A stretch of 64,000 nt of DNA from Liolophura sinensis (taxonomy: Eukaryota > Mollusca > Polyplacophora > Chitonida > Chitonidae): contig NC_088295.1 in the NCBI RefSeq assembly GCF_032854445.1, positions 30,498,470 to 30,562,469 on the forward strand, in the 5' to 3' direction. Both the position numbers and the translations under genes were made by a program. A model generated the notes under the pieces. That model was not told where the DNA came from. It made no database searches and saw nothing but the letters and a program-made list of their open reading frames with translations. Positions within the stretch are counted from its first letter, which is position 1. Every line of letters starts with the position of its first letter. Below, piece after piece: positions 4,971 through 41,902 of this stretch.

Positions 4971-5222
4971 GTGCTGAGTAATGTTTGGATTAGAAAATTG
5001 AATAAGGTCTGGATGAGAAAATTTTGTACGGGTTGGATGAGAAAATTGAGTAAAGTTTGGATGAGAAAACTGACTAACGCTTGGAACAGAAGACTGAGTA
5101 AGATTTGGATCAGAAAACTCAGTAGAATTTGCAAGAAAATTAAACTGAGTAAGGTTTGGATGAGAAAACTGAGTAAGGATTGGATGAAAAAACTGAGTAA
5201 GGTTTGGATCAGAAAATTGAGC
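4971..5222. repeat. 24-bp minisatellite
   Basis: About ten diverged units of the form AGAAAACTGAGTAAGGTTTGGATG. Because the unit is a multiple of three, the minus strand reads as repeated short FSHPNLTQ-like peptides. That pattern reflects the period and is not evidence for a gene. Confidence 0.85.
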
Positions 5223-5277
5223 TGAGTTCACGGGAAAAAGGTACAAAATGATTTGGACTGATATCTGTGGGAAAGTA

Positions 5278-6122
5278 ATGAGAATGAGAAAGTTTGGGAT
5301 AGTGTGATCGTAAAAGCTGAGAAAGTATTGGAAAGTTTGGGATGGTGTGATCGTAAAAGCTGAGAAAGTATTGGAAAGTTTGGGATGGTGTGATCGTAAA
5401 AGCGGATAAAGTATTGGAAAGTTTGGGATGGTGTGATCGTAAAAGTGGAGAAAGTATTGGAAAGTTTGGGATGGTGTAATCGTAAAAGCGGATAAAGTAT
5501 TGGAAAGTTTGGGATGGTGTGATCGTAAAAGCGGATAAAGTATTGGAAAGTTTGGGATGGTGTGATCGTAAAAGCTGAGAAAGTATTGGAAAGTTTGGGA
5601 TGGTGTGATCGTAAAAGTGGAGAAAGTATTGGAAAGTTTGGGATGGTGTAATCGTAAAAGCGGATAAAGTATTGGAAAGTTTGGCATGGTGTAATCGTAA
5701 AAGCGGATAAAGTATTGGAAAGTTTGGGATGGTGTGATCGTAAAAGCGGATAAAGTATTGGAAAGTTTGGGATGGTGTGATCGTAAAAGCTGAGAAAGTA
5801 TTGGAATGTTTGGGATGGTGTGATCGTAAAAGTGGAGAAAGTATTGGAAAGTTTGGGATGGTGTGATCGTAAAAGAGGAGAAAGTATTGGAAAGTTTGGG
5901 ATGGTGTGATCGTAAAAGCGGATAAAGTATTGGAAAGTTTGGGATGGTGTGATCGTAAAAGCTGAGAAAGTATTGGAAAGTTTGGGATGGTGTGATCGTA
6001 AAAGTGGAGAAAGTATTGGAAAGTTTAAGATGGTGTGATCGTAAAAGAGGAGAAAGTATTGGAAAGTTTGGGATGGTGTGATCGTAAAAATGGAGAAAGT
6101 ATTGGAAAGTTTAGGATAGTGT
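5278..6122. repeat. 43-bp minisatellite with higher-order structure
   Basis: About 19-20 head-to-tail units carrying GATCGTAAAAG, a variable six-base block, AAGTATTGGAAAG and TTTGGGATGGTGT. Successive copies lie 43 bp apart. Units differ mainly in the variable block (CTGAGA, CGGATA, TGGAGA or AGGAGA), and the variants recur in a loose four-unit order of about 172 bp. The minus strand is open for 250 codons because all three frames of the unit lack stops, and the peptide repeats every 43 residues. Confidence 0.95.
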
Positions 6123-6382
6123 GTAAATATGGTCTTACATATTTCATTCGACCTTTTGAAGGGGAAGGATGTCTTTGTATTTTGCTTGTCATGACCTGGA
6201 ATGCTTTTGCAATAATATCGGTCATTTATTTTATTATTATAATATTTTCTGTAACATGTATATCACTGTCACAGTATTGTTAATAAAATTTACATATATC
6301 AAATTTACATACGTCTTCGTGTGTTTCATATCCCACAAATTGCCTTTTCGATGAGTACATTTAACACAGGCACCATGCCACT

Positions 6383-6759: not shown

Positions 6760-7352
6760 AAGATAAGTGTATCTAGATAATAAAACAGTGTAACGTAATG
6801 AGACACTCTCTTACAATAAAAAAGTGTAACATAATGAGACATCCTCTTAGACAATAAAAAAGTGTAACATAATGAGACACTGTTAGACAATAAAAGAGTG
6901 TAACATAATGAGACACTGTGTTAGATTGTAAAACAGTGTTACATACTGAGACACTCTATTCGAGAGTAAAACAATGTAACATACTGAGACACTTTATAAG
7001 ATAGTAAAACAGTGTAACATAGTGACACTCTATTAGATAATAAAACAGTTTAACATAATGAGACACTCCATTAAATAGTAAAACAGTGTAACATAATGAG
7101 ACACTCTCTTAGATGATAAATGGTGTTACATAATGAGACACTCTCTTGCATAATAAAACAGTGCAACATAATGTGACACTCTTTTAGACAATAAACAGTG
7201 TAACATAAAGAGACACTTTATTAGATAGTAAAACAGTGTAACATAGTGACACACTCTATTAGATAATAAAACAGTGTAACGTAATGAGACACTCTATTCG
7301 ATAGTAAAACAGTGTAACATAATGAGACACTCTCTCAGATAATAAACGGTGC
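6760..7352. repeat. 40-bp minisatellite, left block
   Basis: Tandem units of ACATAATGAGACACTCTATT followed by AGATAATAAAACAGTGTAAC, with small indels. The same array resumes at 9183. The 1.8 kb between the blocks is a reverse-transcriptase element, so this was once a single array. Confidence 0.93.
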
Positions 7353-7359
7353 TACTACA

Positions 7360-9180
7360 TGTACTCTGAAGGAGCTATTTAACACAAAACCTTTCTTAAG
7401 AAAGGCGCATAAATATACCTACCTGTCATACAGAAATACCACAACTTTACAGGATTCATAAAATGCATAAATCCCCATACAAGGCTCGATTTATTGCGGG
7501 TTCAAGAAGCTGTACCACAAAACTCTTGCCAACCATACTTACGAGAGCGTTACAAGAAGTAAAGTCATTTTGGAATAAGTATTGTAGTGCCATAACAAAA
7601 ATTTCAGGTGTCAACTGCATGTGGATTCTTAACAACTCCAAACGTCTTACAGAAGAACTTGATGATGATATGCATATACCGTACAAAGACATGTCCACAT
7701 GGGATTTCTCTACTCTCTATACTACGATTCCTCACAAAGATCTTATTGAAAGAATATCGCCGTTAATTGTATCGGTATTTACTAAAACAGGTCACCGTTA
7801 CATTAACGTCAGAAGCAATAAGGCCTTCTTTAGTTCTACTCTTTATAAAGGTTACCACTCATGGGATGTTACATTATTTATTGAATTACTTGAATTTCTC
7901 ATTAATAATGTCTATGTGAAATTCGGAGATACCATTTACCAACAATGCATAGGTATTCCAATGGGTACGAATTGTGCGCCTCTTTTGGCAGACCTATACC
8001 TGTTTTCATATGAATACGACCATATGCAGAAATTACTTAAAAGTAATATCTTTAAAGCTCGATCCATTTCATTTACCAAGCGGTATATTGATGATCTACT
8101 GGCGTTAAATAACCCCATATTGCTGAAGCGGTGAAGGAAATCTATCCGCCTTCATCGGATTTAAAGGAGACAACAGATAGTCCTGATGGTACATCTTGTT
8201 TTGATCTATATTTGTACAAAGACGAACAAGGTCTCCTTTCACGCCGCCTTTACGACAAAAGGGATAATTTCAATTTTGATATTGTAAATTATCCTTATTT
8301 AGATGGCAAAATACCGAAGGGTCCTGCATATGGCGTATACATATCTCGCCTTGTAGCATTTGTCAGATCTTGCGATAATTGTGATGACTTTAATCTGCGT
8401 CACAAGTTGCTAGCTCAAAAACTAGTTTGTCAAAGATACTCCATCAAACGCCTTCATTCTAATTTTCTCAAATTTTACAATGAGTATAACACTCTCGTCG
8501 GCAGGTATGGACAGAGCGTTCAGAATCTCTGGCGATCTGCATTGTGATCAACCACATAGACGGCGCTGTTATCCCTATGTACATATCTATCACGTACATG
8601 GTATTTAACAACATAGCTGGCGCTGGTTGCCCAGTGTAACCGTTTATCTTGTATGTCATGTGTAACATCATAGATGGCGCCTCTTGTAGCATGAGATTTT
8701 TACATATTAACGGGAATAATCGTCCGTTACTTTTGAGTCACAATCTGATCGGTTAGGGTCTGTAACACTCGTCATTTTCAAACTGTATCTAATACCGCTT
8801 AACCTGGGGCTAGGGGCCGTAAAGGTAGCCATGCTCATTACATCAGCATGATGCCTTTATGGACAGTTGCAATTAAAGCGCGACTGAGATACTTGTTTAA
8901 TTGTTATTTGACCTGGAACTCATTCACGGACTACGAATTTGAACTTTGATATGAAATTAATGCCTGGAATATTCATTGTCTGCCCGACATCATTGAAAAC
9001 TGATGACCGCTTCTCTCTTGTGCGTTACCGGCTTTATTTCTTATTTGTATAATTTCTTACATACCTTTATCTTTGGGAGTTAGTGTTAAACGTTGTTTTG
9101 GAAATGGATCTTGTGATTATCGACTTGGAACGCCTTTTACGGACTACGAATGGTATATGAATGTCGGACTTGACGCTTAT
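7360..9180 (+). mobile_element. Reverse-transcriptase retroelement (Penelope-like type) inserted in the 40-bp array
   Basis: A retroelement segment bounded on both sides by 40-bp minisatellite units. The first two thirds encode reverse transcriptase. The rest is a non-coding 3' region in which ATGGCGC-like hexamers recur about every 50 bp (near 8560, 8620 and 8675). No LTRs, capsid or envelope genes are seen. No endonuclease domain is visible in this copy. The Penelope-like assignment rests on the style of the motifs only, and another non-LTR class is possible. Exact ends and a target-site duplication were not resolved. Confidence 0.65.
7463..8547 (+). pseudogene. Reverse transcriptase remnant of the retroelement
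   Basis: The sequence shows ordered RT motifs: NPYKARFIAG-like SPYKARFIAGS, a WDFSTLYTTIP block, GIPMGTNCAPLLADLYL, and a catalytic YIDDL block followed by a thumb-like region with LYDKRDNFNFDIVNYPYLD and GPAYGVYISRL. The family makes cDNA from element RNA. Coding capacity is interrupted about once, and no 5' start or endonuclease is present, so this copy is not expected to be active. A related fragment lies on the minus strand at 16985-17345. Confidence 0.8.
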
Positions 9181-9182
9181 AT

Positions 9183-9752
9183 TTACATAATGAGACACTC
9201 TCTTACATAATAAAACAGTGTAACATAATGAGACATCCTCTAAGATAATAAACAGTGTTACATAATGAGACACTCTCTTAGATAATAAAACAGGGTAACA
9301 TAATGGGACACTCTATTAGATAATAAAACAGCGTAACGTAATGAGACACTCTAATAGATAGTGAAACAGTGTTACATAATGAGACATTGTAGTAGATAAT
9401 AAAACAGTGTTACATAATAAGACACTCTATTAGACAATAAAACAGTGTAACATAATGAGACACTCTTTTAGACAATAAAACAGAGTAACATAATGAGACA
9501 CTATTAGATAGTAAAACAGTGTTACATGAGACACACTATTAGACAACAAAAAGGTGTAACATAATGAGACACTCTATTAGATAATGAAACAGTGTAACAT
9601 AATAGGACATTCTATTTTGATAATAAAACTGTGTAACATAATGACACTCTATTACACAATAAAACAGTGTTACATAATGAGACACTCTATCAGACAATAA
9701 AACAGTGTTACATAATGAGAAACTCTATTAGATAATAAAACAGTGTAACATA
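9183..9752. repeat. 40-bp minisatellite, right block
   Basis: The units are the same as at 6760-7352. A SINE interrupts the array at 9753, and one more unit follows at 10021-10062. Units vary in the CTCTATTAGA segment, and several carry short deletions. Confidence 0.93.
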
Positions 9753-20400: not shown

Positions 20401-22938
20401 CCTAAACTGCTATTGACTTTATTCTAAGCCCTGCTTCTGGTACTGCCATATTTGACATTGTTTTCACGTTTTAGTATGATATAACCTTCATAAATGAATT
20501 TATTATATTCCTTGTAGTATATGACCTCACGGCAGTATGGTTTTAGAGCTTGATGTAAGGAAACTGTTATAAAAAATCAAAGTAATTTGTTCGCTAAGAC
20601 TGTAGAGTAGGCTGAGTTATTGCGTAGAGCTTGTTCGCTGAGACAGTAGAGTAAGCTGTGTTACTGCGTAGAGTTTGTTCGCTGATACAGAAAAGTAGGT
20701 TGTATTTCTGCGTGGAGTTTGCTCTAACCGCATGTTAATTGGTGCAGCTATTTGTAAAACAAATTCCTCTCCGCGCCCATTGCCAAGCATGCCGCATGTT
20801 TTTAATAATTACGACGCCATATGAGACAATGAATTCTTGTCGTCGAAACTCTGCTTTTGTAGATTAACATTATGAATCAGAAAAAGTGTTCTAAGTTCAT
20901 TTTTTGCTTTGCAAATATATAAACTTTCAACACATGGATGTGTAGAGCTTGTGTTGTTACATATGACTGACTAAAAGCACTTTTTTGTAGCGAGATTTTA
21001 CAGATTTTAGACAGCTGAATATAGGCGAATGACCAAAAGAAATAGACACACGTAAATAGTATAACAAGCGCGAATCAAGACAAATAATTCATCAGCGACT
21101 GCAGATTTCCCTATAGCTGGAAGTAAATTAAAACCACATGGGGCCTCCATGTTCAGGAACTCTTCACCAATCCAGATAATCTGATTATGTGCATTGGCAC
21201 GATCCCTATACGTGAGCTTAGACCATCACTTCATACAATCTAAGAAAAAAAATGTCCATATCACGTCACTTTGCGTGGATTTTGTAATGTATGGATATCA
21301 CTCTGATGTGTTTTATTTTACAGTTTTGACCCACGTAGTTGAAAAAGAAACAGATACTGAACTCGACGAAAAGGTAACGTTTCTTAATTAACTTATCATC
21401 TCTATTTGAAAGGCGTGAAGTTACACTTGATTCACTTTTCCTGACAACTGTATTTCGTACATGGCCATGTTAGTCATTTTGCCTGATCCTGAGAATTCTT
21501 ACACTACAGTGATTTGAGGTTTGTGTAGAAGGTAGAATATGTCTATGAAATTTTATTATGGAAATTTAACATACTATCCTGTATATACAAATTTAGTTTG
21601 CCCTAAATGGTGCAAATAAAATAGAACACCAAGAACTGAAAAGTATAGTAAAAGCATAGAGACTGCTCAGGAGGTATCTTACCTGACAAAAGCCCAATTA
21701 ATCGCCATGATGATTTGCTAATATCTCATAGGTCAACTGAAATTAATACTTATATTTATTACAACTGTTTCTTTTTTCAGTTGCCTCAGCCTTTTAAGCA
21801 GAGGCGTCTTCTTCTGAACAGAAAATGTCGGCAGCTGTTCACCAAGAGTGCACGTCGCATCATCTGGGAGCATTTTCCTCATGAACAGATGATCACTGAC
21901 GCGAACAGAAACTTTGCCTATTGCTCAGTGGAAAAAGCGGGGTCGACATTTTGGAAATCCATCTTCGCAAAGTTAGAGGGCAAAATGTTGCCGGATACAA
22001 CAGAAATTCCCATTGATGTGAAAACTAAAGACGAGATCCACGGAATTTTTCTTTATAAGCTCAAAAACTACTCTCAGCAACGAGCTATGGAATTCCTAAA
22101 GCACGCTCGCCTCATGCTCTTTGTCCGAGATCCATATATTCGACTCACTTCTGCTTATATGGATAAGCTGTTTTCGCCCAACCATTTCTACTGGGCTCAG
22201 ATCGGCAAACTGATTGTGTCCAGAGTAAGGCGAAACCCAACAAAGCATTCCCAGAAGTGTGGTCATGACGTAACGTTTAACGAGTTTTTACAGTATTTCG
22301 TGTTATCCGAAACGCGAAGGTCTGTACCTTCCGATCATCATTGGAAGCCTATATGGAGGATGTGCCAGCCATGTGCTTTGTCTTACAGATACATAGGCAA
22401 ACTGGAAACATTCACAAGCGATGCCGAGCAAATCCTTGCCATGTTGTCCGCGAACAATACTGTGTTCTTGCATGACGTCAGCAGACGTGACGCCATCGTA
22501 CGTGACGTCAGCCAGTACGTCATGTCCGTCTTGCAACACTTAGAAGAATACAAAAAATGTTTGACGCTACCAGAAATTTTACAACGACTGTGGGCGTTAT
22601 TTATTTTTAAGGGTTACTTTAAAGGAACAGAACCTTTTGTTTCACCTAATATATCCAAGAAAGATGTGTCCGTGAATTTGGAAACTTCACTGATTCACCA
22701 ATTCCTGAATATGACCATTCTCAAGATTAAAAAGACAGTGAATGCTAACTCACTGGATTCCAGGCGAAACAAGATTTCCAGAGAAATGTTTAGAACCGTA
22801 TCAACGTCTCTGTGTACTGACGTACAACGACTGGTTCACCCAGACTCTGTGTTGTTTGGATATAACAAAAATACTGACATCTGTTCTCAAGATGGTGCGA
22901 CTTCCCCTGTATCTTCAATAGATCCGAACTGGGTCTGA
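14310..22938 (+). CDS. Carbohydrate sulfotransferase, CHST8-14 type (437 aa, three exons)
   Basis: Exons 14310-14415, 21324-21373 and 21781-22938 join in frame (phases 1 and 0) into 437 codons. Residues about 8-25 form a signal-anchor helix after the basic start MVRLKK, giving a type II Golgi membrane protein. A short acidic stem follows, then a Sulfotransfer_2 catalytic domain. Family members move sulfate from PAPS to GalNAc, GlcA or related sugars on glycans. The 5'-phosphosulfate site is YCSVEKAGSTFWK (about 99-111). The 3'-phosphate site is VRDPYIRLTSAYMDK, with Arg168 and Ser176. HWKPIWRMCQPC and YIGKLETF match the conserved chondroitin/dermatan 4-sulfotransferase block. The usual P-K-V-A-C/G core of the first site is changed to E-K-A-G-S. 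The exact acceptor sugar cannot be inferred. Confidence 0.88.
14590..14841 (+). mobile_element. SINE family B, 3' part, in sulfotransferase intron 1
   Basis: A plus-strand copy matching the reverse complement of 37741-37980, including CAACGACTGGTTGACCCGTA, TAAGTCGTCTCAGTGA and a tail ending in ACTCACTCACTCAC. The tRNA head is missing. Confidence 0.85.
14850..15420. repeat. Diverged ~75-80-bp tandem repeat plus a ~22-bp block
   Basis: Between 14860 and 15300, units share a sequence like CGTCATACACTGTAAATTC, then GAAGTTACATGAGCTACT. The spacing is about 75-80 bp over roughly five copies. At 15310-15415 a shorter unit (CTAGCCAGTTATACAGTAGTT) recurs about four times. The block is intronic. Confidence 0.6.
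16510..16782 (+). CDS. Unassigned 90-codon open frame in the intron
   Basis: An open frame with mixed, lysine-rich composition, containing GRSGSVVCKTTLKTKHARTK and ending in TQGMVEANELN. It starts just before an acceptor-like CGCAG. I recognise no family. It could be an exon of a nested gene, a mobile-element scrap or chance. Confidence 0.2.
   Translation: MRRKSEIKTLKFSSGFLLNLGARTDIRVLAVKHYGRSGSVVCKTTLKTKHARTKKGYIERNKNGFIQERQFRVFSDGRMTQGMVEANELN
16806..16870 (-). mobile_element. SINE tail fragment
   Basis: A TTTATTTATTTATT run followed by GGGTTTTACTTCGTATTCAA and GAATATTTG, which is the family A 3' end on the minus strand. The rest is missing. Confidence 0.6.
16985..17345 (-). pseudogene. 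Reverse-transcriptase fragment, second copy of the 7.4-9.2 kb family
   Basis: The minus strand encodes QDKRDMFNFDCVDYPYVDN and GPVYDMSIFRLVEFM, then LLQKLVSQGYAIKRVHLKF and LKFYKEN. These align in order with the thumb region of the element at 7463-8547 (YDKRDNFNFDIVNYPYLDG, then LLAQKLVCQRYSIKRLHSNF). Only the C-terminal part survives, and it is degraded. Confidence 0.8.
17650..17990. repeat. Diverged local repeat
   Basis: Three loosely similar segments begin with TTTCCGGACTTTTT- or TTTCTCAGTTTTTTTC-like sequence and continue into AAAATGGCTCATCGTTTTGAA-like sequence, roughly 100-130 bp apart. The similarity is low. Confidence 0.4.
18347..18368. repeat. G22 homopolymer
   Basis: An uninterrupted run of 22 guanines on the plus strand in sulfotransferase intron 1. 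It could form a G-quadruplex and is prone to length error in sequencing. Confidence 0.95.
19316..19582 (+). mobile_element. SINE family A, full length, 13-bp target-site duplication
   Basis: An intact-looking tRNA-SINE with box A (CGCTCAGTCGG), box B (GAGTTCAAGTCC), a body, and a tail ending AATCAAATAAATAAAATCAA. The perfect 13-bp direct repeat TTAAAGTTATGTC flanks it (19303-19315 and 19583-19595), which indicates a fairly recent insertion into sulfotransferase intron 1. Confidence 0.96.
20587..20720. repeat. 44-bp repeat, three copies
   Basis: TTGTTCGCT begins at 20587, 20631 and 20675, exactly 44 bp apart. Each is followed by ARACAGTAGAGTARGCTG and TACTGCGTAGAGT. Confidence 0.8.
21324..21373 (+). 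CDS. Sulfotransferase exon 2 (stem)
   Basis: A 50-nt exon between a TTTTACAG acceptor and a GTAACG donor. It completes codon 36 and adds LTHVVEKETDTELDEK, an acidic luminal stem segment. Its phases (1 in, 0 out) fit the neighbouring exons exactly. Confidence 0.75.
21781..22938 (+). CDS. Sulfotransferase exon 3 (catalytic domain)
   Basis: The exon begins after a TTTCTTTTTTCAG acceptor and runs 385 codons to a TGA at 22936-22938. It contains the whole PAPS-binding and acceptor-binding domain. The open frame extends upstream to 21715, but that part is intronic by its composition and by the strong acceptor. Confidence 0.9.
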   Translation: MPQPFKQRRLLLNRKCRQLFTKSARRIIWEHFPHEQMITDANRNFAYCSVEKAGSTFWKSIFAKLEGKMLPDTTEIPIDVKTKDEIHGIFLYKLKNYSQQRAMEFLKHARLMLFVRDPYIRLTSAYMDKLFSPNHFYWAQIGKLIVSRVRRNPTKHSQKCGHDVTFNEFLQYFVLSETRRSVPSDHHWKPIWRMCQPCALSYRYIGKLETFTSDAEQILAMLSANNTVFLHDVSRRDAIVRDVSQYVMSVLQHLEEYKKCLTLPEILQRLWALFIFKGYFKGTEPFVSPNISKKDVSVNLETSLIHQFLNMTILKIKKTVNANSLDSRRNKISREMFRTVSTSLCTDVQRLVHPDSVLFGYNKNTDICSQDGATSPVSSIDPNWV

Positions 22939-27367: not shown

Positions 27368-27432
27368 ATGTCGAGGTTCGACACGATCAGTTCCACGTCT
27401 CGGAAGCCGGTAATAGTTCACGTCGATTATTG
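27368..27432 (+). CDS. Selenoprotein exon 1
   Basis: It encodes a Ser/Thr-rich start (MSRFDTISSTSRK), strand PVIVHVDY, and the first two bases of Cys22. A strong GTAAGT donor follows. The split codon TG|T becomes Cys when joined to exon 2. Confidence 0.82.
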
Positions 27433-30400
27433 GTAAGTTATTCATTAATCAAAGAATATCTCTATACACTAGTTTATAAGAGGATACTTAATATTGAAAT
27501 AAGATACAAATAAACCTATAGTTGAGAAAATGTCCACAAAACTTAAATCGTGAGAATGAATGAACAGTATGAACTTTATTTAATCAAAAGTTAATGCTGA
27601 TATTTCATTCAGCCAATTTCCGACAAATGGCTATTTGGCCATTCACTTTACTAAAACTTACGCTGACATCCTTGTGTACTGTGTACAAGCCTTCATAGGA
27701 CACTTTAGAGCTTGCTTTAATCTCGCTGTATATAAATAGGTTCTGTCATTGCCCTTAACCGCGAAGCTTTCTCAATAAAAACTTCCAGATCTGAGACTCA
27801 GCTTACATATGATTTGCTGGAATATCACAGCCGAAGCGCAATGGGCAATTCGAGTTACCAAAGCCAAAGTATGAGTGTGATCAGAGTAGTAGATACAAGC
27901 CGTGTATTATGTGTGTATAGTAAACATCACTACAAATCCTTGTATACAATTTAGGCGATGATTTCACAGAAGACATATACATATAATAAAAATATGATCT
28001 CTATGGAAACAAATTGTGATCAGTCGCCATTTACCGATGTACAAAATGCTCAAACATGGAACGAATGACTGGTTATGAAATGTAGATATTAAACAGAGAG
28101 ATTTCGCGGTTCTGTATATCAATAGTCTGCAGTTGTTTTTGCTGAAATGTAAAAGGAATAAATTAACAAATTCACATGAAAATTAACGCTTCTTTCTATA
28201 CTCCCTCTACCTGGCAAGTAGGCCCCGTTGCGGTTTATAATACTTTATACAACCCAAAGAGTTTCATACCCAAAGAGTGTTATATAATACAAAACTCTTT
28301 TGGAATTTTTTATTTATTTATTTATTTATTTTATGTTTTGCATTGCATAGGAACGTATATAGACTGTACGACGGCGGTCAGTTTTGTATTTAGGTGAAAC
28401 AGAACAACACATGGAGGAAACCACCGCACCCCGCTACGTTTACCTAACCTCCCGACGAGAGGTCATAATCGAGACAGCATAGCCGCTGTATTACGTATGA
28501 AATTCCTGGTTAGCATCAATACAATTGCTATCAATCCCTGCATTTTTATACATCTCGATTATTCTGCGCCTAATAGGCATCAAGTATTAATAACCATATT
28601 ACATTTCTACAATCCAACAAATTACAATATATTAAGTGCGGAATGTATGCGATAAGTTGAGGTTTGGACTGTGGCAGTATGCGGAGACAGAATTTGCTTT
28701 TTGTCAACAGACATGCAGGGTGAAAAAAGTTTCCGATAAGCCTAGCTGATGGAAAGGTATATCGGTATTTGAGATGTAGGGATGTAGGGTAATTTTGTAT
28801 TTATTTGCAGTCTGTCCTACATGACAGAACGGAAAACTTAAATAGGACATTGATTTTGTGATGTTGGAGAAAAAAAATAAGCTGTCTGGATCGACAACGT
28901 TTACTTGATGACCTTTAGAAAAACTATAAAAGAAGCTGAGCGTCTTTAGCACGTGTGTAGCAAATAGAGCCTTCACCTTTCTTGCAAGAAATAAATTGTC
29001 AGTTATAAAACATAGGGATAAGCTATAAAAAAAAAAGAACGGTGCACAGACTGACTAAAGCCATACCCAGATCTTACTGTTCATCATTACCATCCACCAA
29101 AACCTGACGACTAGACTTCTCCAATACATGATACCAGTCTTATTTTATGTATGTTAACAAGTTACTTTTAAGTAAACAAATGTAGGTACTTGTGAACGGA
29201 TTCCGGGAACGGTGCATATAAACAGAGCTAGAATATGGGCTTGAGCAAAACCCTTGGGATAGCTAGAATTTGGGCTTTAGCATAACCGTTGGAATAGAGC
29301 TAGAATATAGACTTTAACATAACCCTTGGGACAGAGCTAGAACATGGGCTTTACCATAACCATTGGGATATAGGTAGAACATGGGCTTTACCATAATCCT
29401 TGCGATACAGGTAGAACATGGGCTTTAGCATAACCCTTGCGATACAGGTAGAACATGGGCTTTACCATAACCCTTGGGATAGCGAGGATATGGGTTTTAG
29501 CATAATCCTTGGGGTAGAGCTAGAACACGGGCTTTACCATAAACAAGGGGTGGAGATAGAACATGGCTTTAGCGTTATTCTTTGGATAGCTAGATAACTC
29601 TTGGGACAGGGCAATAATATGGACTTTAGCATAAGCCTTGGGATAGCTAGGATATCCGTTTTAGCATAGCCCTTGCGACAAAACTGGAACATGGACTTTA
29701 GCATAACCCTTGGGATAGCTAGAATATGGACTTTAGTGGTAGAGTTGAGATAGCTAGAATATGAGCTTTAACACAATCCTTGGATAGAGCTAGAATATGG
29801 ACTTTAACATAGCCCTTTGGATAGGGCTAGAATATGGGTATTAGCATAACCCTTTGGATAGAGCTAGAATATGGGTATTAGCATAACCCATGGGATAGAG
29901 ATAGAACATGTGACTTAGCGGGACGTCTGGGATATCTAGAATATGGGATTTAGCATAACCCTTTGGATAGAGCTAGAATATGGGCTTTAGCATAACCCGT
30001 GGTATAGAGCTAGAACGTGTGATTTAGCATAACGTCTGGGATAGCTAGAATATGGGATTTAGCATTACCCTTGGGATACAGCTAGAATATGGGATTTAGC
30101 ATTACCCTTGGGATACAGCTAGAATATGGGATTTAGTATTACCCTTGGGATACAGCTAGAATATGGGATTTAGCATTACCCTTGGGATACAGCTAGAATA
30201 TGGGATTTAGCATTACCCTTGGGATACAGCTAGAATATGGGATTTAGCATTACCCTTGGGATACAGCTAGAATATGGGATTTAGCATTACCCTTGGGATA
30301 GAGCTTGAATATGAACTTTAGCGTAACCATTGGGATAGAACTAGAACATGGACTTTAGCATAACCCTTGAGATAGAACTGGAACATGGACTAGCTAGAAT

Positions 30401-33400
30401 ATGGGCTTTAGCGCTACAGTTGGGATAGCTAGAATATGGGCTTTAGCATAACCCTTGGGATAAAGCTAGGGCATGGATTTTAGCATAACCCTTGGGAATA
30501 TGGACTTTAGCATAACCCTTGGGATAGAGCTAGGATATTGGTATTAACATAACCACTGGAATAGAGCTAGAATATGGGATTTAGCATAACCCTTGGGACA
30601 GAGCTGGAACATGGGATTTAGTGTAAAGTCTGGGATAGTTAGAATATGGGCTTTAGCATAACCCTTGGGATAGAGCTAGAATATGAGTTTTCGCATAACC
30701 CTTGGGATAGCTACAATATGGACATTTGTACACATTAGAGCTATAATTAACACAACCCGACGGGAGACAGTGCAATCCAGCATGTATTCTGTGTAGCGTT
30801 AGGGCTATATCACATGAGTGGGGCATTTTTGTGTGTGTTCTGTGTAGCGTTAGGGCTATATTACATGAGTGGGGCATTTTTTGTGTGTGTTCTGTGTAGC
30901 GTTAGGGCTATATCACATGAGTGGGGCATTTTTTGTGTGTGTTCTTTGTAGCGTTAGGGCTATATCACATGAGTGGAGCATTTTCGTGTGTGTTCTGTGT
31001 AGCGTTATGGCTATATCGCATGAGTGGGGCATTTTTGTGTGTGTTCTATGTAGCGTTAGGGCTATATCACATGAGTGGGGCATTTTTGTGTGTGTTCTGT
31101 GTAGCGTTAAGTCTGTATCATATGAGTTGGGCATTTTTGTGTGTGTTCTGTGGCCTACATACAGAATACTTTACCTTTGGGAGCACTGATGTGGACATCT
31201 CCACTACAAACGTATTAGCTGTATTTCACGTAAAGCTGCAACATGTGGAGCAAACAGAGTTGTTTTTGATTCACACAGTCACTGCGGTATTTCGAACCAG
31301 CCTTATATTTGTCTGATCCACAGGAAACGATCTACGAATCATTTGCCTACTAAGGTGCGAGTATACAAACCGAACGCACTAACGAGATTCGATCAGAGCT
31401 CGGGGTATGTTGTGTCGTATACAAACCCATACAAGGCCTAATTCTTTTGTCATCTGTCCACTATAGGTTTCTAACCGAGTCTTGTCAAAGAAGACATTCC
31501 TCGTTTGCTGAAATCAGTTTTGTAATCCTTCCTCGCCAATATCCAAGCTTTTAATTATCCCTTATCTGTCGGAGGTATTATTTTACCTTCCGCATACACT
31601 GGAGACGCATATTATCTTGTGGGGATTTCATCTAGTTCTAATCGGATAAGAATTATCAGTCTTTCTCAACTCCACGTCTTCCTTCATGGTAAATTAGTGA
31701 CAGCAAACGCGTTTCCAGTTCAAATCTGATTAGATCGAATCGTTTTAACACCTGGTGTACGGCTTCATTCTACAGCCCTTCCCAAGGGATTCAAACATGA
31801 AGTAAATACGATGACGGAATGAGCACAGTCTCAAAAACAAAAAAACTTGAAACTTTTCCCTCCAAGTGAAAATCAATATGTTGGTAATTACCTAATGTAA
31901 ATGCATAGTAAAAGGTGATTACTCTGCTTCTTTTTACACTCAATAAAACTCTTACAACTATGCTATTCCTTAACAGATCTGTTACCATTTTATAACATCC
32001 AGGCACTAGCCGAAGTTCAGACAAACCTCCACGTGACAATGATCCAATACCAGTATCCCAAACACTAAGGCAGAGTGTCAATGTTCAAACAAACCTTCAC
32101 GGGGCAATGATTCAATACCAGTATCCCAAACACTAAGGCAGACTGTCAATGTTCAAACAAACCTTCACGGGGCAATGATTCAATACCAGTATCCCAAACA
32201 CTAAGGCAGACTGTCAATGTTCAAACAAACCTCCACGTGACAATGATCCAATACCAGTATCCCAAACACTAAGGCAGACTGTCAATGTTCAAAGAAACCT
32301 TCACGGGGCAATGATTCAATACCAGTATCCCAAACATTAAGGACTGTATGATGTCCTTTCAGACATGCAGACAATGTTCAATGTTCAAACAAACCTCCAT
32401 GTGACAATGATCCAATTCCAGTATCCCAAACACTGAGGAATGTATGATGTTCCTTCAGACTTAAAGTCTGTTGATGTTCAAACAAACCCCCATGTGACTC
32501 TATGATGTCCCTTCAGACAAGCTGTTGATGTTCAAACATACGCCCATGTGACTGTATGATGTCCCTTCAGACTTAAAGACTGTTGATGTTCAAACAAACC
32601 TCCATGTGACAAAAATCCAATACCAGTATCCCAAACACTGAGGACTGTGTGATGTCCCTTCAGACAGGCAGAGTGTCGATGCTAAAACAAACCATATGAT
32701 AATGGTCCAATACCGCCGATGTTCACATCATAATCAACACCAGCATCTCTAATAGCAACACCATATTCGGTGCATTATTGATCACCAAGGATTATGCTTT
32801 TCTCCCTTTTATCTAATTTAATTCAGATTTTATAGCGCGGAATAGTAATTGGCCTCCCGTATTTATTTTAGAGAATGCGTTATTTTTCGTCTCAGTTTCT
32901 CACATGAGCGAGGAGGATTTTCTGTGATTATATTTTCATCCCCGTTGCCAGGATAAAGCACTGTTAGCTCGGGTGCCAGCCGTTCCTAATTGAATGATAG
33001 AATCCATTTTGCACAAGTAATGCACTGATGGAGGCAACAGTCCTTTGAAGTGCCCCTTCTTTCACCAGCAAGTTGGCGTCAAATGCACAGATTGATTTAA
33101 TGCAGTTTTGTTGACTGAACCACTGGACTCATTATCGAATATTGGTACAGACGGGATAATCAAACTGACAAAACAAAAAGTCGGCCGAACTATAATGATT
33201 TCAACCACCAATGAACCTTTAAAATACAGATACATTTAAAACCAACTGCCATAATGGGTGACCGTGTCAGTGCAATTTTTTGTTGTGGTTAAATAGAATG
33301 ATTAGAGATAAGCAATCACGGGCATTTCTGGAAAGTAATTTTGCTAATGTGAAGTGAAAACTCCTTTACGATATATTTTGGCTGCAAACTGTGGATGTGG

Positions 33401-36400
33401 TCCTGAAAAACTTCTATCGTTCTGTTCATTATATAGATCCATTCCAATGTATAAAATATAAAATCAAGAAATGTGCTGGAAAGCTGACCTTACGGTGTGT
33501 GATACGGAGACTCTGCACGCGGTGTTCTCCAACATGTTCTTATACACGGTGCTATGCTGAATATAAAATGAATTATAAAAGACTACAGCATACAGAGCAA
33601 AGCCAGAGCTTTGGCAACAGTGTAATAGTTGGCAAATGGTCACACGTCACAGGTGAAATCGGGCCTCTTGTATATTTAACCCAGTTAGGATTTTATTCTA
33701 ACTGTTAATAAATATACAGAGAGCAGAGAAATCATTGTGTTATTAGGCATTGTTACAGTAGCCTTACAACACGGCGACAAAACTGTTACGGATTACAACA
33801 GTTCGATTGCTCAGTCCGCGGATTATGTTAATCAGTTACCTTTGAGTCACTTTATGAGGATGAGCAGACGTTTTAGACGGTAGGTTACTCTAGATATGCT
33901 GGAAGTTTACGTCGTACAGGTACTTAACATTTTTTCAGTCATATGACGACGAGTCTTTCGGTGCGTGTACATAGATGTATACTGTGTCGTCCTGTGGCAG
34001 GGCAAACCATTGCCGCCGAAGGGCTGCCACCACCGACGGTGACATATTTGGGTCACCTGGAAACGAAAAGCTGTTCAGATGGGTGATTATAATGCGCTCA
34101 TATCCGAGAGTCCATCATTACTACAGGCTACTTTAATCCCTTGATGACATGTTGTTTCCGGGCACGTGATTTTTAGAATATGTACCTCGGTTAGCACAAG
34201 GCTAAAGTAGTACTGTAGTCTGTATGAGTAAAATGTACAGACTACAGTGGTTCAGAAATACGTAAAATCTCTTTAAAAGATGTTCAATGCTATGCTGAGT
34301 TTTTCACTTCTATGGCGACGGGCAAGTTTATGGGGGGAGACAACTGGAGTATTCAGAGCAAACAGCCAGTTTTCTTCAGGTGGCCACACAGAACAGGAAT
34401 CAAACCTTAGACGAAGATATTGCTTGGCTCTAGGCGGCTTATAAATTATTGATTTTTGCATCAGAATTAGCGTATTGATAAAAAAAAAAACAAGATGGAC
34501 GTAGCCCTTAAGGATATGGTCTTGAACAACAGTTATACAATGGCACGCTTTTGTCTTTGTAGGGTTAATAACACACCGATTTTTGAATCAAGGTTGGCTT
34601 AGTGGTAAAAAAAATAACAAGTTTAAAGCACACGTAAGAAAGCTATATCCTGGACACATGTTATATGTGTACTAATAAGGCTTTACATATATATGTATTA
34701 AACATTAACATTCTCGTTTGCATTACTTCCGGTGTTAAGCGACGTGACATTTAAACCACGTTGTGTGTCAATAACACTTATCCATATCGTATGTGTTTAG
34801 CACTGTTTGTATTTGAGATTTATCACGTGTCTTTGACCCTTCCGTGCTGGAATCACTCAGGTTTACCATTAACTACGTAGCATCACGCACAGTTTTGTCA
34901 GTTCTGAGTAAATAATGTAAATGGACGTGACATATACTGAAAAAGGTTCACGAGGTAAAAGGATGACGCGCTTGCGTAGTCTCAGTGGTGTGCTCAACTG
35001 ACATCTTCTCAACAAGCATCACAATTCACAATGCTGAAGTTGTACGGCTTCGTATTCCATGCCAACACTTTCCTGTACCAGTGTCTGGAGGTCTTTGATA
35101 TTCGAAAGGGCAAACGCTAAGTAATACATTTAGGTCTCTCACTGGGTCATATTGAATAATTTTGATAATAGCATAAAGTAAGACGCTCAATGCACTCAGC
35201 AAGCACAAGGTTCAACAATTCATCCAATAAAGTGTGATAAACAACCACGGGCAATAAATCGAAGCTTTGAAGTGGTTTGAATTTTGACTGAGGTATGTTT
35301 GCATAAACCAGGATTCTGCTGGTGGGCTAAGCATCCCTTGGCATTGTTTTCATGTTATTTTTATTAAATGTGATGAAACTGCGGCGTTTTTAGTAATTCT
35401 GGACCAATAGCCCTGAGGTAAACTGGCAAAAGGCCGGATTTCACCGGTTATGTGTGACCATTTGCCATTACACTGTCGTTGTTGCTTCATCCTTTCGTCT
35501 TTTCTGTCTGTTTACATAATTTGCGTCCAAATGGAACATGAGACCGCGTTTTAAAATATAAAAATATCTTGCCATACATTGAAAAAACTGAAGTGAATCA
35601 TTTGTAATGATGAGATGTGGAAAATACTTTTGGTTTCCGTTCAATCGAAAAAAGATTGTACTTTAAACGAACAAGGCCTTCTGTTGTGCTCCAGCCATCA
35701 CACAAAAAAGCCCATGGCAAGGTAATGGCAAGGTAATGCACGACAAAGCAATACTAGGTCGACATTTCAAACTTCTTTTATTCTATCCTTATAGACCTAT
35801 ACGCCGGATAAATACCTTAAAGAAGAGAAACATCAACAATTATCAGAATATATTTCGACTGAATGACCTGTTATCTGTGACTTCTTTCTATTCTATTTTC
35901 TATGCAGTTATTCCTGACAGAACTATGGAGGTAAATTTACTGATCTAAAACTGGCTGTGATAGAGAAATTTCCTCATGCCGATGTGTCGGGAACATTCGG
36001 CGAAAAGGGTGAGTAACCACAAGGGTATAGGCTTAATGATTTAACGCGATCGTCTAGCTGTATTCTACCACGCGATCGTCTAGCTGTATTCTACTCTAGA
36101 CGGAAGAAACCAGGCAAGACTGAACCAGAAACAGCCCACGGTACCAAGGTCACTCAAACCGATGTTGGCATCCTTTCAGGACGCTGCGGCAGTGTAGTTT
36201 AAAGTGAAGAATGATTTCGCGTATTAATCCCATATATGCAGACGTGTTGTATGCCGTTGGATTTGTCACGACTACTAGCCGTGTACGAATCCACGCCTAT
36301 TTACAAGTGAACGTGAAGGGGCGAAGTTTAGTCATACCTCCTAGGTTATTCCAGCCATGAACACGATCCCCTAATGGTTTAATGCAATTACTTTGGATTT

Positions 36401-39054
36401 CAGCGTGACAGCAATGATAAAAAAAGACGTACACATTGCTAACCGCTACCGGTGTATTTCACTCTGTTATAGAGCTTGGTGAAGTTAGCATAGCATTCCA
36501 ACACAACATTCAACATCATATTGACCAACATACAGCATGGTTTGCAGTGTTATGCTGGAATCAGCCGCCAGCCTCGCCGAAGGAAAATCAATATCTGTTG
36601 CCGATATAGGTGTAATATTAAGGGAAACGTCATACAAATCAGTGCCTGCATTTTAGCGTATCTGAAACATTAAGCTCTACTTTGAATGTCACCCAGTCGG
36701 ATCTGCTTGTTTCCTAAAGTTATATTTATTTCACCAACGACACCATCAAGCAATCGTGTAGTCTAGAAGCGGTTGTGTTTACCGCTGACATTTTTAGACA
36801 ACTGAACACCTGAATTAATAGCCCTAGCCTCAGTTAAACTTGATACAGTATAATGTCACCCTAATCACTGTTAATATCTAATATACACAGCAGGGAGTAT
36901 AATACATTTGATCATGTCGCCACGAATGGAGTTTGGTCTCCATGGTTAACTGAACATGTAATGGCGATTTTTCTGGTGTCAGTGTCACGATCTCCTGTCA
37001 TGGAATGTTGACATACACTGATATATTCTTTCCATCAATAAATTACACATGTACATGTTACTCAGGGGGATATTAAACCTAAATTGTTTGGGGTTAAGTG
37101 GAAAACACATTTGTAAATTCATCATATACAGACATATGTGGTTCATCCGTCATATATATGATCGATAACATTTATGATCCATGCAAACATGATTAAATAA
37201 ACCATTAAAAATTTCCGGAAATCTGGTCATTGTTGCAAAGGTAGCAGAATACATACACATCCTGAATGAATTCACAAGAAAACATTCACAAGACGAGAAT
37301 AACGTATAGTCCTAACTACCCTGTCCCAGAAAAGAAAATGTCTTCAAACGCTGATTAAACTGATCTTAAAACAAGACCAATGCACTACATGATCGTCATA
37401 TACACACCAAAAATTAATCTCTTAATTTTAATAGAAAGTCTCTTAAAAGAAAGTGAATTAAAAGAATATGTGTCATATTTAACAGAATAATCTGTTGCAA
37501 TAACAGAAAACATTCTAGCATCACTCAGACAACAGACTTTCGGTTAAAATTAACACAATGATTTTTTGAGTGTACCTTTTCTAGATATCTAGACAGCTTT
37601 CTTTAAATATTGACATTGGTGATAGATATACTTGAACAATTTTGAATTATTCGTAAGCGTACAAGCCAGAATGCATGCTTCTCCATAAGAAAATTACAAT
37701 TCCTGCAGTAGTAGAGTTCAAAACCGATTTGAACTGGATTGTGAGTGAGTGAGTGCTTGGGGTTTAACGTCGTACTCAACAATTTTTCAGTCATATGACG
37801 ACGAAGGAATCATTAGGGTGCATGCACGTGCCTCCTTGTTGCAGGACGGATTTCCACCGCTCTTTTATTTAGTGCTGCATCACTGAGACGACTTACCGAA
37901 GGCAAGTATGCCGCCCCGCCCGAGCCATTATACTGATACGGGTCAACCAGTCGTTGCACTATCCCTTTCATGCTGAACGCCAAGCGAGGAAGTTACAACT
38001 TCCTCTTTTAAAGTCTTAGGTGTGACTCGACCAAGGATTGATCCTGGATCTACCGGTCCCGAAGCGGACGCTCTACCAACTGTGCTATCCGGGCCGGTCT
38101 GAACTGGATTGTGATCTGAAATTATTTATTTATTTACTTCATTTCCGTTTAACGTCGTACTTTAGACGTACTCAACGTTACGATTGTAGGCCCTACATAC
38201 CGGTAGTCAGTTTTTAGTGTGGGGGAAGCCGGAGCACATGCAGTTAACAACCGACCTTTGGGTAGTTGCCAAGAACTCTCCTACGCGTGAGGTAGCCTAC
38301 AATCTTGCACATCATTTTGGTAGAATAAGATCTTCCTGCCTGGAGTGACGTTTTCAAAGTTTCAGCACCATATAATAATTTGATTGATTACCATCACAAT
38401 CACTGGTATTCCCTTTACGCTATACGACCAGACTAAAAAAACACATCTCAATTAGACGCCATGACTTTATATAATATCATAATGTATTCCTCTATCCACA
38501 GATTCCTTTGAAGTGTTTGTTAATGGACACTTGATATTTTCTCGCCTGTATACCAACGCCTTTCCCGACCACGACAGCGTAAGTTCATACCTCTGATATC
38601 ATGGGTATTGTCATCCATAATGACAATTTTTTACCATATTGTATGCACTTGTATTAACAAATGCACTTTCCTGATTTTCGCCACAGGCAATCTGAGAGAG
38701 ATGAACACAAATGAAACAAAAGGGCATAACAATTTATCGCAGTATTATACGGTAGATGGCAATAGACTATTCTGTCAAATGTAACTCACATATTCTATTA
38801 ATTCAAGGGAACGATTGGACTAACAGGCTGTTATGTTGAATATGACAGACTACTGTGTTATAACCACAGAATACATTCTCTGAAAAGACTTTGTTAAAAT
38901 TAACAGATTAATTTTTTTAAGTTAATGTGTAGAATTGAATACAAGTGTGGTAATTTGACGTATGCTGCATTTGTAGGTTATAGAGCAGATCATGGACCTC
39001 ACTACAGATCAGGCAGCAAAGACCACGCGATCGTCTAGCTGTATTCTACTCTAG
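27368..39054 (+). CDS. Selenoprotein of the Rdx family (SELENOW/MIEN1-like), 106 aa, four exons, TGA read as selenocysteine
   Basis: Exons 27368-27432, 35908-36008, 38502-38578 and 38977-39054 join without a frame error (phases 2, 1, 0). The product is a small thioredoxin-like protein. Residues 14-21 (PVIVHVDY) form the first beta strand. They are followed by Cys22-Tyr-Ser-Sec25, where Sec is the in-frame TGA at 35915-35917. A helix (LKLAVIEKFPHADV) comes next, then the family core SFEVFVNGHLIFSRL, and last a C-terminal Cys-Ile-Leu-Leu CaaX box for prenylation. Human MIEN1 has Cys-x-x-Cys and ends Cys-Val-Ile-Leu; SELENOW has Cys-x-x-Sec but no CaaX box. A SECIS element lies in the 3' UTR. 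Its likely role is a membrane-tethered thiol/selenol redox protein. The ATG is the first in frame after an upstream stop and has A at -3. Confidence 0.88.
28309..28485 (-). mobile_element. SINE-like element, family C
   Basis: A TTTATTTATT tail, then ACGACGGCGGTCAGTTTTGT and a GGAGGAAACC-like block. A related copy is at 38121-38330. It resembles family A only in general plan. Confidence 0.5.
29215..30720. repeat. 37-bp minisatellite in selenoprotein intron 1
   Basis: About forty units of GGGCTTTAGCATAACCCTTG plus GGATAGAGCTAGAATAT. Flanking units are diverged and vary in length, while seven consecutive units at about 30055-30300 are almost identical with an exact 37-bp period. Confidence 0.93.
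30770..31155. repeat. 51-52-bp minisatellite in selenoprotein intron 1
   Basis: Seven to eight units of TGTGTAGCGTTAGGGCTATA, TCACATGAGTGGGGCATTTT and a TGTGTG run. Because 51 is a multiple of three, both strands hold open frames with a 17-residue period. These are not genes. Confidence 0.92.
32025..32700. repeat. 68-bp minisatellite in selenoprotein intron 1
   Basis: Units contain CAATACCAGTATCCCAAACA, CTAAGGCAGACTGTCAATGT and TCAAACAAACC. Four near-identical copies at the left have an exact 68-bp period. To the right, copies are shortened and shuffled with an extra GTATGATGTCCCTTCAGAC module. Confidence 0.92.
32701..35907. other. Remainder of selenoprotein intron 1
   Basis: No exon recognised. 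A family B SINE fragment (minus) lies at about 33911-34050, shown by ACATTTTTTCAGTCATATGA and CTGTGGCAGGGCAA. A 105-codon frame at 33391-33708 shows no family features. Confidence 0.4.
35908..36008 (+). CDS. Selenoprotein exon 2 with in-frame TGA (Sec25)
   Basis: The acceptor is a long pyrimidine tract ending in TATGCAG. The exon reads (Cys)-Tyr-Ser-TGA-Gln-Asn-Tyr-Gly-Gly, then KFTDLKLAVIEKFPHADVSG and TFGEK. A second AG at 35919-35920 would skip the TGA but would not keep frame with exon 1, which supports use of the upstream site. The donor is GTGAGT. Confidence 0.85.
36067..36208 (+). repeat. Near-perfect copy of the end of selenoprotein exon 4, in intron 2
   Basis: Its 142 bp differ at one base from 39022-39163, which covers the last ten codons, the TAG and 109 nt of 3' UTR but stops before the SECIS. 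Just upstream, 36044-36068 repeats the first part again with a 26-bp offset. No good acceptor keeps the copied CaaX frame in line with exon 2. Confidence 0.95.
37741..38099 (-). mobile_element. SINE family B, full length, with 15-bp target-site duplication
   Basis: A tRNA-headed SINE (reverse complement begins GGCCCGGATAGCACAGTTGG, with box B GGATCAATCC) and a tail rich in GTGAGTGAGTGAG on the plus strand. The perfect direct repeat TGAACTGGATTGTGA occurs at 37730-37744 and 38100-38114, so the insertion is recent. It lies in selenoprotein intron 2. Confidence 0.94.
38121..38330 (-). mobile_element. SINE-like element, family C
   Basis: A TTATTTATTTATTTAC tail, GTTTAACGTCGTAC, and a GGTAGTCAGTTTTTAGTG block like that at 28370. 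It is diverged, and no target-site duplication was seen. Confidence 0.5.
38502..38578 (+). CDS. Selenoprotein exon 3
   Basis: Flanked by TATCCACAG and GTAAGT. It encodes (Asp)-SFEVFVNGHLIFSRL and YTNAFPDHDS, the beta-hairpin that is the strongest family signature (compare F-E-I-E-I-N-G-Q-L-V-F-S-K-L in human MIEN1). Confidence 0.9.
38977..39054 (+). CDS. Selenoprotein exon 4 with CaaX box
   Basis: Entered from a TTTGTAG acceptor in phase 0. It encodes VIEQIMDLTTDQAAKTTRSS, then Ser-Cys-Ile-Leu-Leu and TAG. A leucine in the last position predicts geranylgeranylation by established CaaX rules. The true stop is TAG, as expected for a gene that reads TGA as Sec. Confidence 0.87.
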   Translation, partial: VIEQIMDLTTDQAAKTTRSSSCILL

Positions 39055-39179
39055 ACGGAAGAAACCAGGCAAGACTGAACCAGAAACAGCCCACGGTACC
39101 AAGGTCACTCAAACCGATGTTGGCATCCTTTCAGGACGCTGGGGCAGTGTAGTTTAAAGTGAATTTAGAGGGATTCGGA

Positions 39180-39243
39180 TATTTTCTCTATGAAGTCATA
39201 CGGCAAAAGGGCAGTCTGGCGTATGACAGATGACATGAAAATA
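39180..39243 (+). promoter_or_regulatory. SECIS element (selenocysteine insertion signal) in the 3' UTR
   Basis: Helix I pairs TATTTTC (39180-39186) with GAAAATA (39237-39243). The non-Watson-Crick core is ATGA (39190-39193) opposite GA (39229-39230). Helix II pairs GTCATACG (39195-39202) with CGTATGAC (39220-39227), eight perfect pairs. The apical loop opens with AAAA at 39205, 11 nt after ATGA. All hallmarks of a eukaryotic SECIS are present. It lies about 135 nt after the stop codon and about 380 nt from the TGA in the spliced mRNA. Confidence 0.9.
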
Positions 39244-39249
39244 ACCGAT

Positions 39250-40630
39250 CACCTTTGGGATTTTTAAACAGCACTGGACATGAAGCTATATAAAGTATAT
39301 CTATGAAACAACTTGTCTGTAAAGGTTAACCCAGATCTGGAGATTGCGACATATCTGCTTTCGTATTCTTTAATTATCCTGATATTTAGTGTTTCTAATC
39401 TTTTTTTATACTGATGTTCCTGGCAGGTCTACTGTCACAGGCCTATCTCAATTTGCTCAACAAAAGTGGAATATTTTAGTCTATATCAGTGGGATCTGTT
39501 TCTTTAACCACTTCGATGCGCCAAACAGTAAATACCCTCTACATAATATTAGCATCGAATCATTCACCGAGAAGATACCTTCACGATGGTATCATGTAGA
39601 ATAGAGGCATGAATACCTGGCACCGCGTTCGTTACCTTAAATCAATATCAGTAAATATAACAAAAATAGGAATGCAGAAATGTCGAATTAAAATATGGAG
39701 AGTTCAGCATAACGATACATTACAATAACCCTTTCTAAACTCGTGAACACAATCGGAAGTAGGGACTGACACCTACTCCTACCTTGCCCGATGATGCTTC
39801 ACTGTGATTCTTGTTTAGGCATGTTGAAAAATGAATTTGGCTCTTTGCGTCAGATTCGTATAACGGTTAACCACTCTATTCAAAGAGTTTTCATCGGATT
39901 GCGCCATGCAACTTTGGCCTACTTACTTTAGATCAAGTTCGCGGCACGTCAGTAGGCCTATATTTAGTGACGGGCAACTATATCGGATCGACTGGATTTA
40001 TCTACAAATGAACATTTTCCCCAATTTCCCCACATATTAATTCATCTTAATAACTCGGTCACTGTATGACCGTCATACCCTGATCAATTCAAAGCGAATT
40101 ATCTATGAACTGACCAGTTGAATACGCACACTTTGAAGCTCGCGAGTTTCCACGACAATAAAGAGATATAGACTTGTCAGTGATTGACTCCTGTGGCATT
40201 GAAGTGAAGTGTGAAGTAAACCTGTCCCATTTGGAAGCCTACGTTCTCTAAAAACGTGTAGCAGTCTAATACTGAGCCTGCATGTATAAGTATATGCCTA
40301 TGTTTCATTTGCAATGAGTTCATCATCGTTTATTTCCATATCACTGCAACCCAGTTACCATTTACATAACAATCATTCAACTTAATGTGATGATATATAC
40401 ACATGTAATACATGTTTTCACAGAGCCTTCACTCCGTAAAATCAGTTTGCAAAACACGGAATGAAGTTATTCATCATTCAGTTTTGGCCTGTGCATACGA
40501 CTCTTTATTCAAGAAGAACAATAAAAATAATTTGACTGATTGAGGTGTTTATAGAACATAGCTTTCATTATTATTTTGGTCACATTAACAAGGGGTTTCC
40601 TTGATTGTAGCGGGTATGGGTGTCTGCTGT
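39250..40630. other. Downstream of the selenoprotein gene
   Basis: The end of that gene's 3' UTR must lie here. AATAAA occurs near 40148 and 40521, but neither is close to the SECIS. A 71-codon frame at 39389-39604 is not recognisable. Confidence 0.35.
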
Positions 40631-40632
40631 AT

Positions 40633-40985
40633 GTTTATTTACTGATTGGTGTTTTTAAAACGTACTCAAGAATATTTCATTTATACAACGGCGGCCTGCA
40701 TTACGGTGGGAGGAAACCCGCCAGAGCCCAGGGGAAACCACGCGACCATCCACGGGTTGATGGCAGACATTCCAACGTACCTTTATCTCCCTGTGGCAGG
40801 GCAAGTCCATGCCACCAAAGTGCTGCCACCACTGAAGTATCATGACGGGGACACTATATCTGACAACCCATTCTGTCACACTATACTGACACCAGGTCAA
40901 TCAGTCTAACCTTTGTTCTGACCTTTAAGTATTGGTGAGAGGCTCCTGGGCCATTGTGGTGCGCTAGCATCCTAACAGAGGCCCT
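40633..40985 (-). mobile_element. Mosaic SINE: family A with family B sequence inside
   Basis: A family A tail and body occupy 40633-40780. Family B sequence (CTGTGGCAGGGCAAGTCCAT to about 40915) follows. The family A head ends the element (TTGGTGAGAGGCTCCTGGGC to CAGAGGCCC). It is either a nested insertion or a recombinant. Copies are diverged. Confidence 0.7.
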
Positions 40986-41902
40986 TTATGGGATTTCCCC
41001 AGTGCCCAAATATGCATAAAGGTTGCCTCACTGGAACGCCATGTCGACAGGACGCCCGACCCAGTCAAGAAATGCCAACAACCAATGCCCCATGGCCCCA
41101 AATGCGAGAATAGCCAATTTTCAAGTCGTGAGTATCACGATGCAGGCTAGGGCTTAAACTCGGTTCGCTCGCTTTGTATTTTATTATCGACTCCATCCAG
41201 CCTATATTACCGAGATGGGATGGAATAAATAAGTTAAGTCAAACGACCACTATGACGAAGCTGCACATCTTGACTGATACTGAGAGTTCTCTTGGTGTCT
41301 CGTGAGGTTACTTGCTAAGAAGGCGTGAATTTCAGCACGACAAACATTTTATGACATTTGCCATTAACATTACAGTTCTTCTTGATTCAGTAAACTTAGC
41401 TGGTGAATAAAATATAAACATCTGATCTCTCACGTCTGCTTTAGATCACGTCACCGGCATTTACATAAATTTCCATTTCAGCTGCTTTGTCAGGCAGGTG
41501 AAGGAACCCTCAGTTTTGTCACAAAAAGTGTAATTCAGACATAAATCAACCAGTTTTGAAATGTTCCATTTCTGAAATAAAAATTGACCACTGCTGAAAT
41601 AATTCTGCCTAATACTTTTAAATAAAAAATGCCCTTTTATATAACTGGTTCATTTTTATTACAAAAGTGGAACCAATTTCAAAACTAGTCAAGGTCAATT
41701 TTTATAACAAAGGTGGTTTTTGGTTTTGAAAGTGGTCTTCATGTCAAAACTGGCACTTATTTTTAAAAAAGTCTTCTACTTGCAACTATTTTATTACATG
41801 TAGTTCTGCTTCAATGGAATTTCCTGTAGATAACACAGAACACGATGCCTCATGTATATAGACCATTGGCCACACAACCAGTACTTTTCCAGTCCCTGTT
41901 GA

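Follow-up and report, generated by a model that had tools for sequence, protein, structure and literature searches.

The window, the whole 64-kb stretch of DNA that was analyzed, carries on its plus strand what its sequence indicates to be a real selenoprotein gene of the Rdx family, a new and divergent member of the MIEN1/SelW2 branch. The joint reading of the results, to which we assign a probability of approximately 0.85, is that the product is a thioredoxin-like selenoprotein of this branch, into which selenocysteine (Sec) is inserted under the direction of a SECIS element and which is anchored by a prenyl group to the inner membrane face. The exons, the position of the TGA, the family, the SECIS fold, the CaaX-type end, the tRNA-Sec, and two paralogues of like construction were read from the sequence, and we infer Sec insertion, prenylation, location, and the redox role.

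An earlier note on this DNA had proposed that four exons join into a single frame when an internal TGA is read through. The start codon, the splice borders, the TGA, and the final TAG were all found as that note had placed them (Table 1). The joined exons comprised 321 nt and encoded 106 residues, with a single in-frame TGA at codon 25 followed only by the terminal TAG, and all three introns were of the GT-AG type (phases 2, 1, and 0). Stopping at the TGA left only 24 residues, the truncation that the note had foreseen, and an ordinary gene finder or annotation would cut the gene at residue 24. The UGA is very probably read as Sec. Skipping of exon 2 was considered as a different exon arrangement and rejected because stops resulted. 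The intron-2 copy of exon 4 was likewise rejected as an alternative end because exon 2 read into intron 2 gave Gly-Glu-stop before the copy.

Table 1. Positions of the features of the window gene and of its two paralogues in the same genome.
Feature	Position	Strand	Content	Basis
Exon 1	27368..27432	+	Start codon ATG 27368, strand VIVHVDY, bases 1-2 of Cys22	Sequence, joined frame
Exon 2	35908..36008	+	Base 3 of Cys22, Tyr-Ser, Sec TGA, helix start	Sequence; Pfam Rdx over joined protein 8.3e-14
Sec TGA, codon 25	35915..35917	+		Frame; downstream residues alone match Rdx
Copy in intron 2	36067..36208	+	Duplicate of 39022-39163 (3' end of exon 4 with adjoining 3' UTR)	141/142 identical
Exon 3	38502..38578	+	DSFEVFVNGHLIFSRL...	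Sequence; also retrieved as paralogue B match
Exon 4	38977..39054	+	CaaX-type box CILL, then stop TAG 39052-39054	Sequence, joined frame
SECIS candidate, presumed 3' UTR	39182..39241	+		Rfam SECIS_1 30.4 bits; fold
Paralogue B	contig C2, G000:C2:1011225-1019521		Exons 1011225-1011253, 1015628-1015725, 1016376-1016452, 1019435-1019521	
Paralogue C	contig C2, G000:C2:929709-950159		Exons 929709-929737, 935711-935808, 943708-943784, 950073-950159	

The joined protein, with Cys put in place of Sec, was compared with family profiles and solved structures. It matched the Pfam family Rdx (PF10262; 8.3e-14, 52 bits, curated cut-off 22.6) and TIGR02174, CXXU_selWTH (1.3e-15, 57.4 bits, cut-off 34.2). 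Among solved structures, human C17orf37/MIEN1 (2ljk, 1.6e-9) was the best and sole credible match, with one ribosomal protein (E 1.7) as the only further hit up to E 10. These profile and structure matches support the claim of the earlier note that the gene encodes a Sec-containing Rdx protein with MIEN1 as its nearest relative among solved structures. Further support, absent from that note, comes from the SECIS candidate, the CaaX-type end, the tRNA-Sec of the genome, and the two paralogues. The 81 residues downstream of the TGA (26-106) matched Rdx (6.5e-10), TIGR02174 (3.4e-11), and human MIEN1 (2ljk/C17orf37, 2.8e-7) unaided, and the codons after the TGA are family-like, as had been suggested. 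The TGA lies behind the first strand in CYSU and occupies the second redox position, again in agreement with the note, and the C terminus, CILL, is of the CaaX type. The protein is closer to MIEN1 than to selenoprotein W, with mouse SelW (2npb) absent from the matches at E up to 10. Raw identity did not separate the two (26/89 to 2ljk and 21/66 to part of 2npb), whereas the alignment score did (108 versus 30.5).

A SECIS candidate began 127 nt downstream of the stop codon. The Rfam SECIS_1 model matched it over its full length, with an E value of 0.0019 in positions 38900-41000 (2.1 kb) and of 0.058 in the whole window, and among the ten Rfam rows obtained from the 64 kb at E up to 10 it was the only SECIS row. 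A default Rfam search omits the candidate because 30.4 bits fall under the gathering score of 35. Folding of 39170-39260 (-27.0 kcal/mol) gave a basal helix, an internal loop with AUGA and AGAU on opposite sides, a perfectly paired helix of 8 bp, and an apical loop with an A-rich start. The candidate was the sole plus-strand site in the window for the SECIS core pattern, which also gave a single, looser match on the minus strand. The chance rate of this pattern was 0.11 per strand in 100 first-order Markov sequences, but the pattern itself is biased because it was devised after the candidate had been seen. A genome-wide SECIS search, in which 150 of 13032 candidates were scored, returned two rows of 34.9 and 23.8 bits, neither of which reached the cut-off, and none of the three SECIS sites of the window gene and its paralogues was among the matches listed. 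The best of these genome-wide matches (L012, G000:C12:2217677-2217744; 34.9 bits) lay near open frames in which no gene was recognized.

The assembly that holds the window comprises 609,464,459 bases in 632 contigs. A genome search with the tRNA-Sec model RF01852 returned 36 rows, five of which were at or above the cut-off of 47 bits, and the top two lay on contigs C6 (80.4 bits) and C5 (79.1 bits). ARAGORN, which was run on four of the eight loci, called tRNA-SeC(tca), with the anticodon TCA, at both of these top loci, and the C6 gene was counted once although it lies in both of the overlapping loci L004 and L006. Locus L007 was called as tRNA-Ser. Beside the C6 gene (L004/L006, G000:C6:47907347-47908763), two more hits to RF01852 (59.3 and 26.1 bits), neither of them called by ARAGORN, are perhaps degenerate tRNA-Sec copies.

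Two paralogues, B and C, were identified on one other contig, C lying approximately 61 kb before B. Paralogue B read MPVKVHVEYCGSU-GHSSRYREL... and ended in CTIL, and paralogue C read MPAEVHVEYCGAU-GYEPRYREL... and ended in CRIL. Both share with the window gene the site of the TGA, intron phases 2-1-0, a 77-nt exon 3, a C terminus of the CaaX type, and a SECIS match downstream of the stop codon, but they lack its additional residue after the redox pair (CGSU-GH in B and CGAU-GY in C). In the two paralogues looked at, the frame behind the site was intact, free of the stops and frameshifts that the earlier note had named as evidence against its reading. The SECIS_1 matches lay on the coding strand, 435 nt after the stop of B (23.1 bits, E 1.2) and 61 nt after that of C (21.8 bits, E 1.9); taken alone they are at chance level, and their place and their core (AUGA, AAA, and UGAU) make them credible. 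Paralogue B matched both 2ljk (8.5e-19) and mouse SelW (2npb, 5e-7). Paralogues B and C were identical at 54/96 residues (56%) and the window protein was identical to each at 34/93 (37%), which makes the window gene the divergent copy of the three. In the exon-wise genome search that retrieved C, the matches listed comprised six exons from three genes, the window gene being represented by exon 3 only; none of the genes among these listed matches had Cys in place of the TGA.

Queries of the protein database with the window protein, with exon 2, and with an alignment of the window protein and B yielded two proteins from other sources, P0001 and P0003. P0001 (65 residues) reproduced the reading of exon 2 over 37 residues, with Trp in place of the TGA and with different flanks, and P0003 (95 residues) carried CGKW-G at the site and CVVM at its C terminus, being identical to B at 52/89 residues and to the window protein at 30/91. 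Trp at exactly this site in both would be the product expected of a code in which TGA specifies Trp, although the Trp may instead stem from TGG codons. No relative of the exon-2 peptide was confirmed in viral and prokaryote contigs. The extra residue between Sec and the aromatic position, which the note had described relative to human MIEN1, was visible in the phmmer alignment; it occurred in the window protein and in P0001, which has the same peptide, and was absent from the five other rows compared. The residue directly after the second redox position was Gln in the window protein (UQN) and Gly in B, C, P0003, 2ljk, and 2npb, this Gly being a trait of the rows compared rather than a published criterion.

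The TGA would have another meaning if the window gene were a decaying, non-functional copy in which it is now a plain stop. The lower identity of the window protein to the paralogues (37%, against 56% between them), the extra residue directly behind Sec, and the partial self-copy in intron 2 are all consistent with such decay, which we nevertheless consider improbable, given that the frame, the splice sites, the SECIS candidate, and the CaaX-type end are all intact. Moreover, the exon-2 peptide recurs unchanged in P0001, with Trp at the Sec site, between flanks that are unlike those of the window gene, which suggests selection on the protein. Still less probable is an ordinary Cys-x-x-Cys MIEN1 whose Cys codon was misread in sequencing or turned into TGA by a private mutation. 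The TGA is one base away from TGC or TGT, and tetrapod Rdx12 is described with Cys at the site (PMC3316567), but a SECIS candidate stands downstream of the stop, two paralogues have TGA at the same site, and the two database relatives carry Trp rather than Cys.

The TGA could also be skipped by another splice form, so that a Sec-free protein would be the main product. Among the combinations of GT donors at 27380-27699 with AG acceptors at 35600-35999, 14 joins avoided the TGA and remained open to 36008, and 8 of these held the frame into exon 3. However, such joins use sites internal to exon 1, all 14 lack residues 19-25 together with the redox residue Cys22, and they would leave the SECIS without a purpose. 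This appears to us the least probable of the explanations considered, and a selenoprotein gene with a UGA read as Sec remains the preferred reading.

The segment copied into intron 2 is a 142-bp repeat, for which a genome search returned only these two places among the matches listed, and 24 of its bases are present a third time just before the copy (stretch 36045-36208). The CaaX codons are part of the copy, which extends into the 3' UTR but stops short of the SECIS and may have arisen by local duplication or through an error of assembly. A tblastn search for Rdx in the window returned the four exons, a 10-residue match in the intron-2 copy, and two weak rows (E 2.9 and 6.2). Intron 2 also contains a minus-strand match to the tRNA family (38023-38094, 29.2 bits) that ARAGORN did not call, and the surrounding 37740-38100 looks like a tRNA-derived repeat. 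A Pfam scan of the neighbors, covering 20 of the 30 stop-to-stop frames of at least 100 residues, gave no clue from synteny: only a sulfotransferase passed the cut-off, a long open frame on the plus strand at 21652-22938 (PF03567, 3.7e-38). A plus-strand open frame at 7400-8134 with a weak reverse transcriptase match below the cut-off (PF00078, 0.00048) is probably an old retroelement. Comparison of the window with itself revealed tandem or local repeats at 4974-6123, 6774-7355, 9183-9752, 29222-30729, and 32015-32693.

On the preferred reading, UGA codon 25 of the spliced mRNA would be decoded by Sec-tRNA, directed by the SECIS 127 nt past the stop, so that Cys22 and Sec25 would form a CxxU redox pair following the first strand. 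CILL would be prenylated, most likely by geranylgeranyltransferase-I, as MIEN1 is on its CVIL end, and the prenyl group would tether the redox site to the inner membrane face, where the protein could undergo disulfide exchange with membrane-bound partners. The fold, the redox motif, and the prenylation of MIEN1 are described in PMC3527542 and PMC6738349. Because the window protein combines CxxU with CILL, a prenyl-anchored selenoprotein oxidoreductase is the simplest account. More tentatively, lipid-anchored selenoproteins may form a small family in animals, in which the window copy, with an active site altered by the extra residue behind Sec, might be tuned to another partner. If this were true, a single genome would have three MIEN1-type genes that combine Sec with a CaaX-type end and thereby bring selenocysteine redox chemistry to the inner membrane face. 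The presence of at least three such Sec-type, CaaX-ended genes of the MIEN1 branch also makes it testable whether MIEN1-type membrane signaling was once selenium-based and lost this property in most tetrapods. With the window gene, a well-supported case is added to the known selenoprotein genes, one that ordinary annotation would cut short.

Selenocysteine in this branch is not new, since SelW2 has been published in fish, frog, shark, sea squirt, and flatworms. The selenoprotein SelW2 is described from bony fishes, frog, and elephant shark, with Rdx12 as its remote Cys relative (PMC3316567); it is also listed for the sea squirt (PMC2874816) and for flatworms (PMC3828610), and the limpet Lottia is credited with three SelW genes (PMC3473315). 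A prenylated SelW2 was not found among the listed literature titles and beginnings of abstracts, and CaaX ends may be usual in SelW2. The window protein resembles SelW2, as published descriptions portray it, in being a Sec-bearing CxxU relative of Rdx12. With mouse selenoprotein W (PDB 2NPB) it shares the Rdx family and the CxxU motif, but it does not match that protein at E up to 10, although B does so at 5e-7. Human MIEN1 (Rdx12, C17orf37; PDB 2LJK) differs in having Cys for Sec and in lacking the additional residue after the redox pair, with 26 of 89 aligned residues identical, and agrees with the window protein in the Rdx domain, the redox pair after the first strand, and a CaaX-type end (CVIL, compared with CILL here).
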